56,972 nt of DNA from Elusimicrobiota bacterium (GTDB lineage: Bacteria > Elusimicrobiota > Elusimicrobia > F11): the NCBI GenBank assembly GCA_022072025.1, contig JAJVIP010000007.1, forward strand, positions 213,281-270,252, in the 5' to 3' direction. Position numbers and translations under genes: made by a program. The notes under the pieces are model-generated. The model saw only the letters and a list, made by a program, of their open reading frames with translations, had not been told where the DNA came from and searched no databases. Positions 22,666-30,298 of the stretch are shown one piece after another. Every line of letters starts with the position of its first letter. Position 1 is the stretch's first letter.

Positions 22666-23535
22666 TTAAACATACTTTCCAATCAGGGGAGCCAACCGCC
22701 TTTTCAAAGCGGGTTTTATGTAATCCGGTTGGGTAAAAATGGCATGTTTGAGCGCACCGGCGGCATCATTGGGAATCTCTTTAAGCCGAGGGAGCAGGTG
22801 GGCCAGAATTTTTTTTGCGTTTTCAGCGTTGGCCATCAAGTGGCCAATGACCATTTCAACAGAAACATGTTCATCTTCCTTCCAACAGTCATAATCCGTC
22901 ACCATGGCGAGCAGCGCATAACTCATCTCGGCCTCACGGGCCAACTTGGCCTCGGGGATGGCCGTCATGCCAACCACGTCGCAATTTAATTTCTGATGAA
23001 GATGAGACTCCGCTTGCGTGGAAAAGGCCGGACCCTCCATGCACAGGTAAGAACCTTTGTCATGAACGGGTAATTTCAAGGCCCGAATAGATTCAACCAA
23101 GGCCTTGGATAAATTTTTAGAAAAAGGATGGGCAAATGAAATATGCGCCACAATTCCTTTTCCGAAGAAGGTGGATTCCCTTCCCTTGGTTCGGTCCACA
23201 ATTTGGTCTGGAACCACAAATTCTCGAGGAGCCAAATCTTGCTTAAGAGAACCGCATGCCGAGATGGCAACCACCTGTTCAACTCCCAGCATCTTCAATG
23301 CAAAAAAATTGGCCCGTTGAGGGATTTCCGAAGGAAGATATCGATGGCCTTTTCCGTGCCGCGGCAGAAAAGCGCACAGCACGTCCTGATAAAGACCAAT
23401 CGTGATGGGATCCGATGGCTTCCCAAACGGAGTGGAGGGGAAAAAAGTACGCAACACCTTTAATCCCTCAATCTGGTAAATGCCGCTGCCGCCAATCACC
23501 GCCACACGAACCGGCCGCCACTTCTTTCTCAACAC
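22666..23535 (-). CDS. mtnP: S-methyl-5'-thioadenosine phosphorylase
   Basis: Splits methylthioadenosine to adenine and methylthioribose-1-phosphate in methionine salvage. 289 residues starting at GTG 23535, with GGAGG 10 bases upstream. VAVIGGSGIYQIEGL is the phosphate-binding start. FLPRHGKGHRYLPSEIPQRANFFALK, YLCMEGPAFSTQAE and GMTAIPEAKLAREAEM follow in order, and VTDYDCWKEDEHVSVE is near the C-terminus. These fit the PNP/MTAP class, MTAP subgroup. Related enzymes act on inosine or guanosine. It is followed by the repeat spacer and the HAD gene. Confidence 0.93.
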   Translation of the reverse strand: MLRKKWRPVRVAVIGGSGIYQIEGLKVLRTFFPSTPFGKPSDPITIGLYQDVLCAFLPRHGKGHRYLPSEIPQRANFFALKMLGVEQVVAISACGSLKQDLAPREFVVPDQIVDRTKGRESTFFGKGIVAHISFAHPFSKNLSKALVESIRALKLPVHDKGSYLCMEGPAFSTQAESHLHQKLNCDVVGMTAIPEAKLAREAEMSYALLAMVTDYDCWKEDEHVSVEMVIGHLMANAENAKKILAHLLPRLKEIPNDAAGALKHAIFTQPDYIKPALKRRLAPLIGKYV

Positions 23536-23918: not shown

Positions 23919-25289
23919 TTACGCGGCTTTTTTCTGTTCGCGTTTTCTGGGGATAAGGAATGAAAAGGTGGCCCCTTTTCCTTTTTCGCTTTGCACCATG
24001 ATTTGACCACCGTGCATGTTGACAATTCCTCGCGCGATCGCGAGCCCCAACCCGGCCCCGCCGGCGGACCGACGGGTCGAGGCATCGGCCTGATAAAACA
24101 TATCAAAAACCTTTTCTTGCTCTTGGGGTGCCAGACCAGGGCCAGTATCGCGAATGGAAATCAACAAAAAGTCTCCTTTTTCTTCACCGGAAATATCAAT
24201 TTCTCCACCCCGATCCGTAAATTTGATGGCGTTTGAGACGATATTGTCCACCACTTGCTGAAGGCGGCTGGGATCCCCCCAGATTTTGGGCAAAGTGGGC
24301 AATGAATGGAGCCGGAGCTGGATGGATTTATTGGCGGCGGCGGCTTTGAGTCCTTCATGGCTGGTGACCAGAATATCATGGAGTGAACATTCCCCCATTT
24401 CCAGATTAAGCCGTCCTGATTCGATGCGGGAAACATCCAACAAATCTGAAATGATGAGGTTCAAGCGGGTGGCTGATTGTTTGGCGATCCCCAAAAATTT
24501 TCTTTGTTGTTCGCTGATGGGTCCCGCTTCTTCATCAAGAAGAACACTTAAAAACCCACTGAGAGACGTTAATGGGGTTCGCAGTTCATGACTCACGATA
24601 GAAAGAAATTCGTCTTTGGCGCGATTGGCATTGGTGAGCTCCTCGACCCTTTTTTGAAGTTCGGCATAAAGTGTCTTGAGTTCCCGGACTCGTGCAATAA
24701 GGCGTTCGTTGGTCTCGCTCAATTCATGCGTCGTGGCCTCGACTTCCGCTTTCAATCGGCGTTCCCGGCTGAGGTTCTCCTCTTGATCCCGACTGTAATT
24801 TAAGGCGATGGCCACCAATCGCCCCAACGATTCCAAGGGCTGGACAAATTCTCTATCGCGAGATTCTTTTTTGGTCACCGCCAATGAAAATAAGCCCATC
24901 ACGTCCTCTCTGCTCTTGATGGGGATATGCAACAGCCCATCGAACCGCATATGAATATCCTCTACCATGGGGGTCAGACGACACAGATCAAATTCAGAAG
25001 AACCCGTCACCATTGCACGTTTGAGAGCCACTTGATGTTCAGGATCTTTTTCAGAGAAGAAAAGATCCATCATCCCGCGTTCACAAATTTTCAGGATTCC
25101 ATCACCTTGTTTTTTCCATATACAACAAGCCCGATCTCCCAAATAGGCCCGAACCACATCCAACGTTCCTGAAGATATCGAAATTTCATCGGGACCTTGC
25201 ATTTCCCAGGCCTGCATGAACGCTGACAGCACATCTGCCACCGCATTCCCTCGCCATTTTTTCCCAATCATGTCCATCATCTTCTTCAT
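23919..25289 (-). CDS. Soluble GAF-domain sensor histidine kinase
   Basis: 456 residues, with no membrane segment, so cytoplasmic. A GAF-like sensor domain spans about residues 15-165. A coiled coil follows over about 170-225. The HisKA phosphoacceptor is at H234 in FLSIVSHELRTPLT. The HATPase domain has an N box (VDNIVSNAIKFT), G1 (RDTGPGLA) and G2 (GGAGLGLAIARGIV). No receiver domain is attached and no response regulator is adjacent. The start ATG overlaps the stop of the DnaA-like ATPase by 4 bases, so the two are almost certainly co-translated. The ligand of the GAF domain is unknown. Confidence 0.9.
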   Translation of the reverse strand: MKKMMDMIGKKWRGNAVADVLSAFMQAWEMQGPDEISISSGTLDVVRAYLGDRACCIWKKQGDGILKICERGMMDLFFSEKDPEHQVALKRAMVTGSSEFDLCRLTPMVEDIHMRFDGLLHIPIKSREDVMGLFSLAVTKKESRDREFVQPLESLGRLVAIALNYSRDQEENLSRERRLKAEVEATTHELSETNERLIARVRELKTLYAELQKRVEELTNANRAKDEFLSIVSHELRTPLTSLSGFLSVLLDEEAGPISEQQRKFLGIAKQSATRLNLIISDLLDVSRIESGRLNLEMGECSLHDILVTSHEGLKAAAANKSIQLRLHSLPTLPKIWGDPSRLQQVVDNIVSNAIKFTDRGGEIDISGEEKGDFLLISIRDTGPGLAPQEQEKVFDMFYQADASTRRSAGGAGLGLAIARGIVNMHGGQIMVQSEKGKGATFSFLIPRKREQKKAA

Positions 25290-26911
25290 CGGGTTCGCAC
25301 CAATGCTATATCCAATGACAAATTGAGATATCGGTAATCTTTCGAAATTTCCGTCCAGTGGATCAATTGAACTGAAATACCTTGCACATCTAATGTCACA
25401 TTCAACTGATCAGCAAAATCCTGCTGAGATACCATGTTGCCCAACGGAGGCCCAATCACAATGGCCACCGGAACCTTGTTGGCTTTGCATACATCTACAA
25501 AAGCCGTGACATTCACCTTGCCTTTATAGGTGTAGGGTTGATTGTGCATGCTCTTCAGTCGGAATTTAAGTTTGTGTTTTTTAATGACATCTTGGAACTT
25601 GGCTATGACCGTGTTGAGTTCTTTTTCTGCTCCTTCAGGGTAGAAAAAAACCGTGCATATTTCTTTGACTCCAGCCATGGCTTCCGCATCTTGTGAATCC
25701 AAATCATTGTTCTCAGTTGGCATCTCCACGGGCATAGGAGAGGGCACGGCATTGCCACTCACCACAGTGGAGGGTGGGGGTACCGCCGCATGTGAGGCAG
25801 TCGGAACCGGCATAGGCGCCACGGGAGGCGGTGGGGCAGTAGGAGGTGGCGAAGGTGGGAGAACAGGAGGCGGCGGAGAAGGTTGTGGCGGCGGTGCGAT
25901 TTTCTTTTCAAAAACAGGAGAAAGAGGAATAACCGGAAGAGGAGGCGCTGGAATTTTAGGGGCCGTTTTTGGGATCGTCAAATCTTGATCTTCAATGGTG
26001 TCCAAAAGCAAATTAAATGGAAGGTTCGCCTCTTTTTTCTCCACAACTGGAGGAGGCGGTGGAACGGGAGTTGCTTTTTCTATAACAGGGGAAGGAGGTG
26101 GTGCCGGTGGAGGGGGCGGAGGCATGACCGCTACCGGGGCAGAAGCCTCCATTTCCATTGGTGTTCCTTCAGGTAATATTTCCTTTACAACTGATTTCAC
26201 CAGGTCCATATTCAACGTCTGTCGAGAAAGTGTTACATAGGCATGAATTCGTTTCAGGAATCCTTCCAGTTCCCGGACGTTTGTTTTCAAATTCCTCGCC
26301 ACAAAGGCATTCATTTCCTCTGTCATTTGAACCCCGGGATTAAGTGACTGTTTCTTCTTCAAAATTTCAATCCGAGTGGCTTCATCGGGAATTTTAATGT
26401 CGGTCGATAATCCCCATTCCAGACGACTACGAATATTTTTATTGAGGGTCGTTAATTGATTTGGAGGGCGATCGGCGGCCAAAATGACCTGGCAATTGGC
26501 ATGGTGAAGATTGTTAAAAATGTGAAACAACTCTTCTTGGGATATCTTGGATTCCGTCATGTATTGAACATCATCAATGATCAATAAATCGAGTGTGCTG
26601 TATTGACGTCGAACATCCAACATACGGTCCTCTGAAATAGCCGTCAAAATTTCATTCATGAACCGCTCAGCTGAAATGTATTTCACTTGGAATTTTGGAT
26701 TGGTCAACAACAGCTGGTGAGCCACCGCTTGCATCATGTGAGTTTTTCCAACACCCGGAGGACCGTAGACAAAGAGGGGGTTGTAGGTTTCTCCAGGCGC
26801 TTTTATCACTTCAAGGCAGGCCGCCACGGCCACATGATTGTGGACTCCCACAACCAACTGGTCAAATGAGTAAAGGGGTTTTAAACCTGAGGCGGCATCA
26901 ATCTTTGCCAT
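25286..26911 (-). CDS. DnaA-type AAA+ ATPase lacking the DNA-binding domain, with proline-rich linker and new C-terminal domain
   Basis: 541 residues. Residues 1-248 match DnaA domain III: Walker A GPPGVGKT (50-57), Walker B LLIIDD (109-114), sensor I VILAADRPP, DnaA-type arginine finger IRSRLEWGLSTDI (160-172), and sensor II NVRELEGFLKRI around R213. DnaA domains I and IV are absent, so the origin-binding helix-turn-helix is missing and this is not the replication initiator. Residues 250-425 are low-complexity and Pro/Ala/Val-rich. Residues 426-541 form a domain beginning VFFYPEGAEKE that I do not recognise; its counterpart ends the neighbouring protein. The start ATG overlaps that gene's stop by one base. 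A regulatory ATP switch is the likely role (inference). Confidence 0.85.
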   Translation of the reverse strand: MAKIDAASGLKPLYSFDQLVVGVHNHVAVAACLEVIKAPGETYNPLFVYGPPGVGKTHMMQAVAHQLLLTNPKFQVKYISAERFMNEILTAISEDRMLDVRRQYSTLDLLIIDDVQYMTESKISQEELFHIFNNLHHANCQVILAADRPPNQLTTLNKNIRSRLEWGLSTDIKIPDEATRIEILKKKQSLNPGVQMTEEMNAFVARNLKTNVRELEGFLKRIHAYVTLSRQTLNMDLVKSVVKEILPEGTPMEMEASAPVAVMPPPPPPAPPPSPVIEKATPVPPPPPVVEKKEANLPFNLLLDTIEDQDLTIPKTAPKIPAPPLPVIPLSPVFEKKIAPPPQPSPPPPVLPPSPPPTAPPPPVAPMPVPTASHAAVPPPSTVVSGNAVPSPMPVEMPTENNDLDSQDAEAMAGVKEICTVFFYPEGAEKELNTVIAKFQDVIKKHKLKFRLKSMHNQPYTYKGKVNVTAFVDVCKANKVPVAIVIGPPLGNMVSQQDFADQLNVTLDVQGISVQLIHWTEISKDYRYLNLSLDIALVRTR

Positions 26912-28128
26912 CAGCGGCCTCTCTCTAGTTCAATCAAAATATCCATATAAAGGGCTCGCATAGAAAGTTGTTCCATCGTAACAAGACGGCTTTTTAAATT
27001 TCCAGGGGCCGTTTCTAGAGTCAATCCCCTAAAGAGGTTCAAATCTTTTTTGAAGGACAAAACAAACAGGATGTCCGCCCCCGATAATGTCGCGGATTTT
27101 TTCCAGGCGTTCAAATCCAAACTTTTCAAATCCCATGCGCTAATAAACACAAATTCAAACATCATGTTCGACTTGGATTTTTTTCCCATCTCACTCAACT
27201 TGTCCGAGAATTGTTTGGCTTGTCGTTCCTGGCCCTCAGGGAAAAAACAGGCAATCTGAATCAATCCGGTAGGTTTAAGTTCTGCCTGATTCAGGTTCAG
27301 CGGATCTTCCGGCTTATTCTCCGATTCAATGGCAGGAACAGGTTTGATCGTAAGGGTTTGGGGAATGGGAATGGGTGATTCTGCAGATTCCTCAGCCGGA
27401 ACCGAATTCGGAGAGACCTCCAATGACTGTGGAGAATTATTATTAGCAGAAAAAGGGTCGGCAGGCTCAGGCTCTTTGAATAAAATGGGAGGCATCTGCG
27501 TGGCCGGGGGTTCCGGCGGAGTGGGCCAATCTTCCACAGGCGCAGGGGTCGCAGGCAAGGCCGCAGACACGGACCGGGGAGAGGGCGGCGGGGACAAGGG
27601 AATATCAGGAATCATAAATGGATCAAGATCTCTTGGTGGTGGCTCGGGTGATAGGGGATGAGCAGGCGCATTTGAAATTGGTGGTGTATCCGCTACTGGT
27701 AACTGAGGAGGGATGGAAGTGACTGGGGGTTTGGGTGGTGGGGGCACCGGAGATGGTGAGGAAGGAGAATTGGGAAAAGCAGCTCGGTTGCTTAGAAAGG
27801 GAGTATCGAGAGAAAAAGGTTCGCCTTCCAGCGCGGGTTTTTCATATTTGGAAGTTGGCGGTGACGGAGGCGCGCTGGGCCAACCTAAAACATTGCCTTT
27901 CCAAAAATCTGCATCTGAGGGACTTCCGTTTGATGGGGGTGAATTCGAAACTGATGGGTTGGACTGACCTTCAGGGACAGCAGAAGAGGGCACAGATGGA
28001 TTTTGAGGGGACGGAGGAGGCGTGGCGCGGCCCAATCCTTCCAATACAGATCGAAGTTCCTCTATCATCCCATCCACCCCCGCCTTTTTTGAAGGGTTTG
28101 GTTGTTGATCTTGTTCTTGATTTTCCAT
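26911..28128 (-). CDS. Proline-rich protein with the same C-terminal domain as the DnaA-like ATPase
   Basis: 405 residues, first gene of the three-gene set. A short charged N-terminal helix (GMIEELRSVLEGLGR) is followed by about 250 residues rich in Pro and Ser with no globular signature. The last 115 residues form a folded domain beginning IQIACFFPEGQERQAKQFSDKL and ending MDILIELERGR. The F-x-PEG-x-E start, the alternating strands and helices, and the YxDI/LDI-x-L-x-R-x-R end correspond to the ATPase's C-terminal domain. No signal peptide or membrane segment. Likely a partner or scaffold for the ATPase, by inference. No obvious ribosome binding site precedes ATG 28128. Confidence 0.75.
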   Translation of the reverse strand: MENQEQDQQPNPSKKAGVDGMIEELRSVLEGLGRATPPPSPQNPSVPSSAVPEGQSNPSVSNSPPSNGSPSDADFWKGNVLGWPSAPPSPPTSKYEKPALEGEPFSLDTPFLSNRAAFPNSPSSPSPVPPPPKPPVTSIPPQLPVADTPPISNAPAHPLSPEPPPRDLDPFMIPDIPLSPPPSPRSVSAALPATPAPVEDWPTPPEPPATQMPPILFKEPEPADPFSANNNSPQSLEVSPNSVPAEESAESPIPIPQTLTIKPVPAIESENKPEDPLNLNQAELKPTGLIQIACFFPEGQERQAKQFSDKLSEMGKKSKSNMMFEFVFISAWDLKSLDLNAWKKSATLSGADILFVLSFKKDLNLFRGLTLETAPGNLKSRLVTMEQLSMRALYMDILIELERGR

Positions 28129-28270: not shown

Positions 28271-28723
28271 TTACGAATTGGATTCGATTTTTCGCACCTT
28301 TTTGAGCCGGCGGGCGTGACGTTGGTCTTTATCAAAAGGTGTTTTTAGCCAGGCCTTAACCATCAATTTAAGTTGAGAAATCGGCACGAATCGACTGGGC
28401 AGGCAAAGCACATTGGCCCAATTGTGTTGAGCGGCCAATTTGGCCACGTCCACCGACCACGGGGTCGCGGCTCGAATGCCCTTAACTTTGTTGGCAGCGA
28501 TACACATGCCAAGGCCCGAACCGCAAGCCAAAATCCCGCGGTCACTAAGGCCCTTGGAAACCGCCTTGGCCACTTTTTCGGCATAGTCTGGGTAATCAGT
28601 AGAATCTTCGGAATAGGTTCCCATATCCACAACGGTATGTCCGAGTTGAGACAAACTTTTAACCATGGCTTCCTTCACCTTAAAACCGGCGTGGTCAGCC
28701 CCGATGGCAATTTTCAATTTCAT
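28271..28723 (-). CDS. rpiB: Ribose-5-phosphate isomerase B (RpiB/LacAB family)
   Basis: Interconverts ribose-5-phosphate and ribulose-5-phosphate, linking with Rpe of this window. 150 residues from ATG 28723; a longer frame to 28786 lies inside tpiA. IAIGADHAGFKVKEAMVKSL opens the protein. The catalytic Cys is in ILACGSGLGMCIAANKVKGIRAA and the proton-relay region in STDYPDYAEKVAKAV. The tail KDQRHARRLKKVRKIE is normal for the family. It starts 16 bases after the tpiA stop. Confidence 0.93.
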   Translation of the reverse strand: MKLKIAIGADHAGFKVKEAMVKSLSQLGHTVVDMGTYSEDSTDYPDYAEKVAKAVSKGLSDRGILACGSGLGMCIAANKVKGIRAATPWSVDVAKLAAQHNWANVLCLPSRFVPISQLKLMVKAWLKTPFDKDQRHARRLKKVRKIESNS

Positions 28724-28739
28724 GATTAAATTCTCACCA

Positions 28740-29534
28740 TCAACGAGAAGAAACATTTTGGTTTTGATAGTTAACAATCGCTGCAAAAGAATCGGGTTTT
28801 AAACTGGCCCCTCCAACCAACCCTCCATCCACATCTTCACAAGCCATGAGATCCGCCATATTATCGGGTTTCACCGATCCCCCATAAAGAATACGAATGG
28901 CCAGAGAGGTTAAGGAACCATATTGATCCTTCAAAATATCCCGAATGGCCAAATGCACTTCTTGTGCTTGAGCGGGAGTGGCGGTTCGACCCGTTCCAAT
29001 GGCCCAAATGGGTTCATAAGCCAACACAATTTTTTTCATGTCGGCCGAAGGAATATCTGCGAATGCGGCTTTTACTTGACGTGAGACCACAGACAAAGTG
29101 GCGTTGGACTCTCGTTCGGCCAAAGTCTCCCCGACACAAACGATGGGAATTAAATTGTTTTTTAGGGCGGTGATAATTTTCTTATTAACAGCCGCATCGG
29201 TTTCGCCAAATATCTGACGGCGTTCCGAATGTCCAATAATTACATGGGTGCATCCCATTGCACCGAGCATTCCAGGAGAAATTTCACCGGTAAAAGCGCC
29301 CTCTAAATTTTCGTTAAGATTTTGGGCCCCCAAAGACACATTGGAACCTCTGGTGAGCGCGGCCACGTGAGACAAGGCCGTAAATGGGGGGCAGATCACC
29401 ACGTCGATCTCTCGGTTTCCTGAAACCAGAGGAAGAAAATTTTTGATGAAAGTCTCCGCCTCAACATGGGTTTTATACATTTTCCAATTGGCGGCGATGA
29501 GGGGACGACGTTGCGATCTGGTGTTTTGAGACAT
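28740..29534 (-). CDS. tpiA: Triosephosphate isomerase
   Basis: Glycolytic interconversion of dihydroxyacetone phosphate and glyceraldehyde-3-phosphate. 264 residues from ATG 29534, which has AGGAG 8 bases upstream. The active-site Lys is in AANWKM, the electrophile His in VIIGHSERR, and the catalytic Glu in VLAYEPIWAIGTG. Phosphate loops are YGGSVKPDN and GGLVGGASL. All are intact. It starts 20 bases after the secretin-like gene and so shares its transcript. Confidence 0.97.
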   Translation of the reverse strand: MSQNTRSQRRPLIAANWKMYKTHVEAETFIKNFLPLVSGNREIDVVICPPFTALSHVAALTRGSNVSLGAQNLNENLEGAFTGEISPGMLGAMGCTHVIIGHSERRQIFGETDAAVNKKIITALKNNLIPIVCVGETLAERESNATLSVVSRQVKAAFADIPSADMKKIVLAYEPIWAIGTGRTATPAQAQEVHLAIRDILKDQYGSLTSLAIRILYGGSVKPDNMADLMACEDVDGGLVGGASLKPDSFAAIVNYQNQNVSSR

Positions 29535-29554
29535 GAAAGATTCTCCTTTAATTT

Positions 29555-30298
29555 TTACTCCCGAGGGGGGATCACACGTGGTGTGACGAAAATGATTATA
29601 GTTGTTCGGCGAAAATTTGTCCTGCGCCATCGAAAAAAAGCTCCCAAGATCGGAATTTTTCTTAAGAAGGGAACCCCCTGAACCGCCTCCGTCCTTTGTG
29701 TTTGAACCAACCCGGCCACAGTCATGCTGGCCCCAGAGTCCAGTGTCACATGGGACGTAACATCTCGAGCCAGAAGAGCGGGCACCGAATTCCCCGATAA
29801 TGACACGCCCGCCGAAACATCCGGGGCGGACACTCCTGCCTTCATATGCATTTGAATGCGTCCGTCCGCCAATAAAAGCGGGCGAACCTCCAATCGAACC
29901 CCATAGGGCTTAAATTCCACATGGGTGGTCCCGAGGGAAGAACTGGTGATGTAGGGAATTTCGCCACCCGCATGGAACGTGGCTGTGGTTCCTGAATCTG
30001 TCACCAAGTTGGGGTTGGCCAAAAGTTCGGCCGCTCCTTCTTCGATGAGGTATCGCAAATCCATTTGAAGCGGAGATAATCGTTGAAAGGATCCCAATGA
30101 AACCACTCCATTTGGGCTGATCTCAGAAAATTCCAAAGATTCTTTCCAATCGAACCCCAAGTTCTCAGCTTTGGAGTTGTCCACCTCATTGACTTCGACT
30201 TGAACTTCAATGGGAATTCGCAGCGAAGCAGGGGCCCCCATCACCACATGGGGAAAAAGGGTGAAGAAAAATACCACCCATCCGACATCCCCTTTCAT
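29555..30298 (-). CDS. Minimal secretin-like protein
   Basis: 247 residues with a signal peptide (VGWVVFFFTLFPHVVMGAPA). The chain goes almost at once into the secretin core: a short IPIEVQVEVNEVDNSKAENLGFDW segment, ANPNLVTDSGTTATFHAGGEIPY, then VEFKPYGVRLEVRP and the C-terminal GVPFLRKIPILGAFFRWRRT plus TTIIIFVTPRVI. It resembles RcpA/CpaC-type secretins of Tad systems, but those are usually 400-500 residues with N-terminal ring domains. Here these are missing. It overlaps the Flp-type pilin gene by 4 bases. Either a reduced channel or a secretin-fold accessory protein. Confidence 0.8.
   Translation of the reverse strand: MKGDVGWVVFFFTLFPHVVMGAPASLRIPIEVQVEVNEVDNSKAENLGFDWKESLEFSEISPNGVVSLGSFQRLSPLQMDLRYLIEEGAAELLANPNLVTDSGTTATFHAGGEIPYITSSSLGTTHVEFKPYGVRLEVRPLLLADGRIQMHMKAGVSAPDVSAGVSLSGNSVPALLARDVTSHVTLDSGASMTVAGLVQTQRTEAVQGVPFLRKIPILGAFFRWRRTNFRRTTIIIFVTPRVIPPRE

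Follow-up and report, generated by a model that had tools for sequence, protein, structure and literature searches.

The three-gene locus examined here is best read as a signaling scaffold built around a DnaA paralog that probably does not bind DNA, which is coupled to a phosphorelay and controls the retraction of type IV pili, a reading to which we give a probability slightly below 0.6. DnaA starts DNA replication in bacteria, and the motor PilT drives the retraction of type IV pili. Collectively, our observations suggest that a switch from replication has been put to new use in the control of surface pili.

The locus lies on the minus strand of a 56,972-nucleotide stretch of contig JAJVIP010000007.1 from an Elusimicrobiota bacterium (hereafter, the window). 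It comprises genes for a partner protein, an AAA+ ATPase, and a histidine kinase (Table 1). The overlaps of 1 base (partner/ATPase) and 4 bases (ATPase/kinase) described in an earlier, sequence-only reading of the locus were confirmed by the open reading frames (ORFs).

Table 1. Features of the three-gene locus and its flanks in the window (CTD, C-terminal domain; ranges in the first column are residues).
Feature	Position	Strand	Basis or remark
Partner protein, 405 aa	26911..28128	-	ORF; N-terminal helix motif, Pro-rich linker, and MID-like CTD (predicted fold); CTD profile match 4e-23
Partner helix motif [IV][IL]xELxx[VL][LF]xxL, 21-34	28027..28068	-	Pattern match
Partner CTD, 290-401	26926..27261	-	Homologous to ATPase CTD by hhalign
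DnaA-derived AAA+ ATPase, 541 aa	25286..26911	-	ORF; Bac_DnaA and TIGR00362 matches
AAA+ domain, DnaA domain III type, 10-248	26168..26884	-	Arginine finger and sensor II present
Walker A GPPGVGKT, 50-57	26741..26764	-	Sequence
ATPase Pro-rich linker, 249-419	25655..26167	-	31.6% Pro over 171 aa
ATPase CTD, 420-537	25301..25654	-	Predicted Rossmann-like, MID-like fold
GAF histidine kinase, 456 aa	23919..25289	-	ORF; no TM-like segment
GAF domain, 37-163	24801..25181	-	PF01590 4.2e-4, PF13185 1.9e-4; weak, just under Pfam cut-offs
HisKA dimerization/phosphoacceptor domain	24414..24620	-	8.2e-21
HATPase_c domain	23943..24278	-	5e-31
rpiB	28271-28786	-	Conserved surroundings, outside module
tpiA	28740-29630	-	Conserved surroundings, outside module
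Purine nucleoside/MTA phosphorylase-like gene	22666..23535	-	Conserved surroundings, outside module

Distribution of the module in the phylum

The CTD profile was matched in 201 of the 285 genomes searched in the phylum and in 66 of 91 genera, nearly always once per genome. This defines a single-copy marker protein for most of the genera and makes the locus a module of the whole phylum, not a local curiosity.

The gene order in relatives is pilT, one or more partners, ATPase, GAF histidine kinase, and response regulator. Among 37 ATPase loci, whose neighboring ORFs were called with a simple script that took wrong frames in the high-GC loci L050, L053, L117, and L118 and missed some neighbors there, a partner-type protein was encoded directly upstream in 17, and the next gene downstream encoded a GAF kinase in 21, with a single-domain, CheY-like response regulator after the kinase in 8 (one family). 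The full trio was adjacent in 9 of these loci, with the kinase or partner missing elsewhere, and the kinase and partner were lost independently in several lineages. Thus, when the neighborhood survey that the sequence-only reading had proposed was carried out, conservation of the locus across the phylum was borne out, whereas strict adjacency of the three genes was the exception.

Conserved metabolic neighbors of the module comprise tpiA, rpiB, deoC, the phosphorylase, and microcompartment genes. BMC and EutN microcompartment shell genes immediately precede pilT or the module at L055 (4184-4498) and L048 (3019-3303), and similar shell sequences were seen by eye at L060, L062, and L066. Just upstream of tpiA in the window is a short gene (29555-30298) that consists mainly of a secretin domain (PF00263).

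A DnaA-derived ATPase core

The description of the middle gene as a DnaA domain III that lacks domains I and IV held up. Bac_DnaA matches residues 10-171 of the window ATPase (2.5e-55), and the TIGR00362 model of DnaA aligns over its positions 101-340 only, at a score under the cut-off for full-length DnaA (288.6 versus 343.9 bits). Walker A/B, sensor I, the arginine finger, and sensor II are all present. Domain I is absent, just nine residues preceding the AAA+ domain, and domain IV (Bac_DnaA_C, PF08299) had no match at the locus, the PF08299 matches of this genome lying elsewhere. A separate canonical DnaA of 466 aa with domain IV is encoded in the same genome (G000), and a separate DnaA with domain IV was identified in 32 of 34 genomes. 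Contig C15 of G000 also carries two ORFs of ~370 aa with a Bac_DnaA_C-like domain (67984-68166 and 75907-76089), ~8 kb apart; ORFs of ~335 aa that resemble them occur in many relatives and are possibly transposase-like proteins.

To compare individual residues, the module AAA+ domains were mapped onto DnaA of B. subtilis, with 7 divergent ATPases set apart from the other 30. Residue roles were taken from published work, in which K222 is an essential lysine that contacts single-stranded DNA (ssDNA) and I190 is an ssDNA residue (PMC6669920, PMC10721633). Conserved in 30 of 30 module ATPases are Walker A/B (Walker A being counted in the 29 with sequence there, 29/29), sensor I, the R264 finger, sensor II, R202, H231, L269, and G317. 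The filament residues R206 and F218 are mostly kept and are S and Y, respectively, in the window copy. K222 is replaced in all 30 (by Ser in the window), and a basic residue in the K222 loop was present in 29 of 29 DnaAs of the phylum versus 1 of 30 module ATPases, the sole case being the window ATPase, in which position 223 is Lys. I190 is retained in 28 of 30 and is Leu in the window. As judged from these alignments, the AAA+ core descends from DnaA and has kept the residues that serve to bind and hydrolyze ATP and to make contact between protomers, and the module ATPase is probably a DnaA-derived ATP switch that does not bind DNA.

Phylogenetic reconstruction placed the module AAA+ domains in a clade (support 0.76) apart from that of the phylum's DnaAs (0.97), which suggests that the module ATPases arose through one old duplication of DnaA. 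The 7 divergent ATPases, including those of a small-genome family, retain the P-loop but have for the most part lost the arginine finger and sensor II. Because the protein is nevertheless kept, ATP switching cannot be a requirement in every lineage. At seven loci (L070, L071, L074, L069, L073, L068, and L075), the retained ATPase has a degenerate arginine finger, sensor I, and/or sensor II; that of the small-genome family has expanded to about 1000 aa.

Domains common to the ATPase and its partner

The proline-rich stretch behind the AAA+ domain, previously put at about 175 residues, is close to that length (Table 1), and the partner, which had no match in Pfam or NCBIfam, has a comparable region (residues 35-289, 27.8% Pro). 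The helix motif that precedes it was found in 13 of 23 listed partner-type proteins (two of which are truncated or frameshifted) and in 0 of 37 ATPase N-terminal regions, against a background of 0.007 per 100 aa, with a pattern that was set post hoc by relaxing a stricter first version that matched nothing.

What the sequence-only reading had overlooked is that the C-terminal domains of the partner and the ATPase are related. Both contain an FFPEG/FYPEG motif, and when the two window CTDs were compared as single sequences, the similarity was no more than suggestive (z = 4.6). When profiles of 37 ATPase CTDs and 20 partner CTDs were compared in hhalign, the probability was 99.5. One borderline sequence on the partner side (L037) is similar to the ATPase CTD; without it, the probability was 99.0, with a shuffled-column null of at most 1.4. 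On this profile evidence, the two CTDs are homologous.

A second domain of ~75 residues (NTD) forms the common start of the ATPase in most relatives and of the partner in some, although it was not found in the copies of the window family f1 (no match in G000 or G003). The ATPase of L042 carries two NTDs, and in two relatives the NTD is fused to a GGDEF domain (477 aa; L077 4551-5984 and L119 147-1580), with one of these fusions encoded just ahead of pilT and the module. Neither CTD nor NTD matches Pfam, the CTD is likewise absent from NCBIfam, and a PDB sequence search with the CTD returned chance-level matches only. The search of the ATPase C-terminus, which had been proposed as a check, yielded no known domain for DNA binding or replication. 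The CTD and NTD are two conserved domains that are missing from Pfam.

The genome of the window encodes a further CTD protein of 253 aa without an ATPase (L037 6137-6898; G000:C10:68160-68516). It adjoins a Ser/Thr kinase with TPR repeats, an ECF-type sigma factor, and a CsgG/FlgO-like protein, a context in which the CTD is used in another signaling setting.

AlphaFold2 modeled the window ATPase CTD as alternating strands and helices with four strands (pLDDT 89.2, pTM 0.82), and in a relative's partner-type protein (NTD, linker, and CTD) both domains were modeled at pLDDT >90, the predicted NTD topology being strand-strand-helix-strand-helix. Foldseek searches with these two independent models were both headed by Argonaute/PIWI MID domains (4p1z for the ATPase CTD, E 3e-5, TM 0.68/0.74, with 0.74 to the target; 3lud first for the partner model). 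The NTD had no distinctive Foldseek match, the search of the NTD + CTD model being dominated by the CTD. Lumazine synthase folds follow close behind, almost as good by E-value, and no sequence match of the CTD to MID or Argonaute was detected in Pfam or among PDB sequences; we therefore treat this as a resemblance of fold and not as membership, the CTD being predicted to adopt a Rossmann-like fold similar to that of Argonaute MID. By eye, the conserved CTD residues (FYPEG, GPPP, YRYLN..D) differ from the Y-K-Q-K of the MID 5'-phosphate pocket. The module proteins also differ from Argonaute/PIWI in that PIWI, PAZ, and N domains are absent.

The histidine kinase

The window kinase has the H, N, and D/G boxes (motifs FLSIVSHELRTPL, NIVSNAIKF, DTGPGL, and GAGLGLAI), and kinases of relatives give strong GAF matches. 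The earlier statement that the kinase has no membrane segments applies to the window's family but not to most relatives, in which such segments are present.

Comparison with DnaA and Hda

The module ATPase shares with DnaA (TIGR00362; B. subtilis DnaA, 8btg) domain III, the initiator-specific helix, the arginine finger, sensors I and II, and most filament-interface residues. It differs in lacking domains I and IV, in the replacement of K222, in its proline-rich linker and MID-like CTD (in relatives also the NTD), and in being a second gene alongside canonical DnaA. Members of the DnaA family that lack domain IV, among them Hda, have regulatory roles, and the module could by analogy regulate replication, with the paralog inserting into or capping DnaA filaments, or stimulating hydrolysis of DnaA-bound ATP, under control of the kinase. 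The DnaA origin of the core, the lack of domain IV, and the conserved arginine finger and filament-interface residues are in keeping with such a role. However, the ATPase is closer to DnaA and scores well under the Hda cut-off (TIGR03420; 107.9 versus 194.8), a simple pattern found no clamp-binding-like motif in its first 60 residues, its extra domains are common to a non-ATPase partner and a GGDEF protein, and the loci of relatives adjoin pilT and not replication genes. We consider a replication regulator of this kind quite improbable.

Association with pilT and c-di-GMP enzymes

We identified pilT in 23 neighborhoods, on the same strand as the module in all 23 and at a median gap of 18 bp from the nearest module gene. 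As an internal control, tpiA and rpiB, which are equally conserved without an obvious link, lie ~2 kb from the module, which suggests that pilT is part of the array and not just of a conserved stretch. By coordinates, pilT is also near the ATPase in G207, G263, and G127. It is absent from the slot between rpiB and the partner in the window, and is not adjacent in L045, L047, L051, L052, or the small-genome family f2.

In the window genome, the PilT that best matches the profile of syntenic pilT is encoded on another contig, beside a gene for a GAF-HD-GYP protein with an intact HHE..DG.GYP motif, and this pair is present in all three genomes of the window family (L116 6742-9247; L121 7118-9670; L122 2646-5167). 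We infer that this pilT is the relocated syntenic copy, in a part of the PilT tree that is weakly supported. Every genome encodes several PilT-family genes, which makes proximity to pilT less specific than it sounds. In G000, six PilT-family proteins score above the family cut-off, and lower-scoring relatives among secretion ATPases are encoded as well.

Gene order, the NTD-GGDEF fusion, and the neighborhood point to a putative role of the module in pilus function. The suggested tie to the cell cycle is not supported by these data, and the genomic evidence points instead to type IV pili, with pilT in an operon-like array, and to c-di-GMP, through the NTD-GGDEF fusion and the pairing of pilT with a GAF-HD-GYP gene; a role in cell polarity is possible. 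The broader proposal of a signaling or spatial-control module on a shared scaffold fares better in part, in that the ATPase and partner resemble scaffold paralogs with which the kinase travels, joined in one family by the response regulator.

A neighboring pilT would also fit a competence module, in which ssDNA from PilT-driven uptake is handled by the DnaA-like ATPase and nearby factors. Retention of I190 in most module ATPases and the presence of recJ directly downstream, in place of the kinase, in L041 and L046 are consistent with this, but recJ is absent beside most loci, the basic residue of the ssDNA loop is lost in 29 of 30 ATPases, no DNA-binding domain was found, and a kinase with regulators does not fit pure DNA handling, all of which renders DNA uptake very doubtful. 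Equally doubtful is a conserved chromosomal stretch of genes without joint function, with which the conserved metabolic neighbors and the independent losses of kinase and partner would agree, but not the spacing of pilT, the paralogous domains within the set, or the NTD-GGDEF fusion beside pilT.

A proposed mechanism and its implications

For the favored reading of a pilus-controlling scaffold, we envision that ATP-bound ATPases would assemble side by side as DnaA does, without DNA. Flexible linkers would then present rows of CTDs and NTDs for co-assembly with the partner and docking of regulators. The GAF kinase may sense a cytoplasmic or membrane signal and feed it into the phosphorelay, ATP turnover could serve as the on/off switch of assembly, and the output would be control of pilus retraction through PilT, of the c-di-GMP enzymes associated with the system, or of both. 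In a bolder form, which we regard as unlikely, DnaA-type filaments or clusters that depend on ATP and are free of DNA would form a cytoskeleton-like scaffold at pilus machines, with the MID-fold domain reading a nucleotide (possibly c-di-GMP) or a protein.

The module resembles pilT operons and regulatory modules of type IV pili in bringing together pilT, a GAF kinase, a CheY-like regulator, and c-di-GMP enzymes. To our knowledge, no type IV pilus system with a DnaA-type ATPase or with the CTD or NTD is known, and a literature search returned no description of DnaA with PilT, of a DnaA paralog with twitching, of MID with DnaA, or of a DnaA-like protein with Hda.

If the favored reading is correct, the universal replication initiator would have been duplicated before or near the root of the phylum and reused outside of replication, and, in the bolder form, would now serve throughout the phylum as a polymer that controls pili. 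In these mostly uncultured bacteria, the module offers a testable link between an ATP-switched polymer, a phosphorelay, c-di-GMP enzymes, and pilus retraction.
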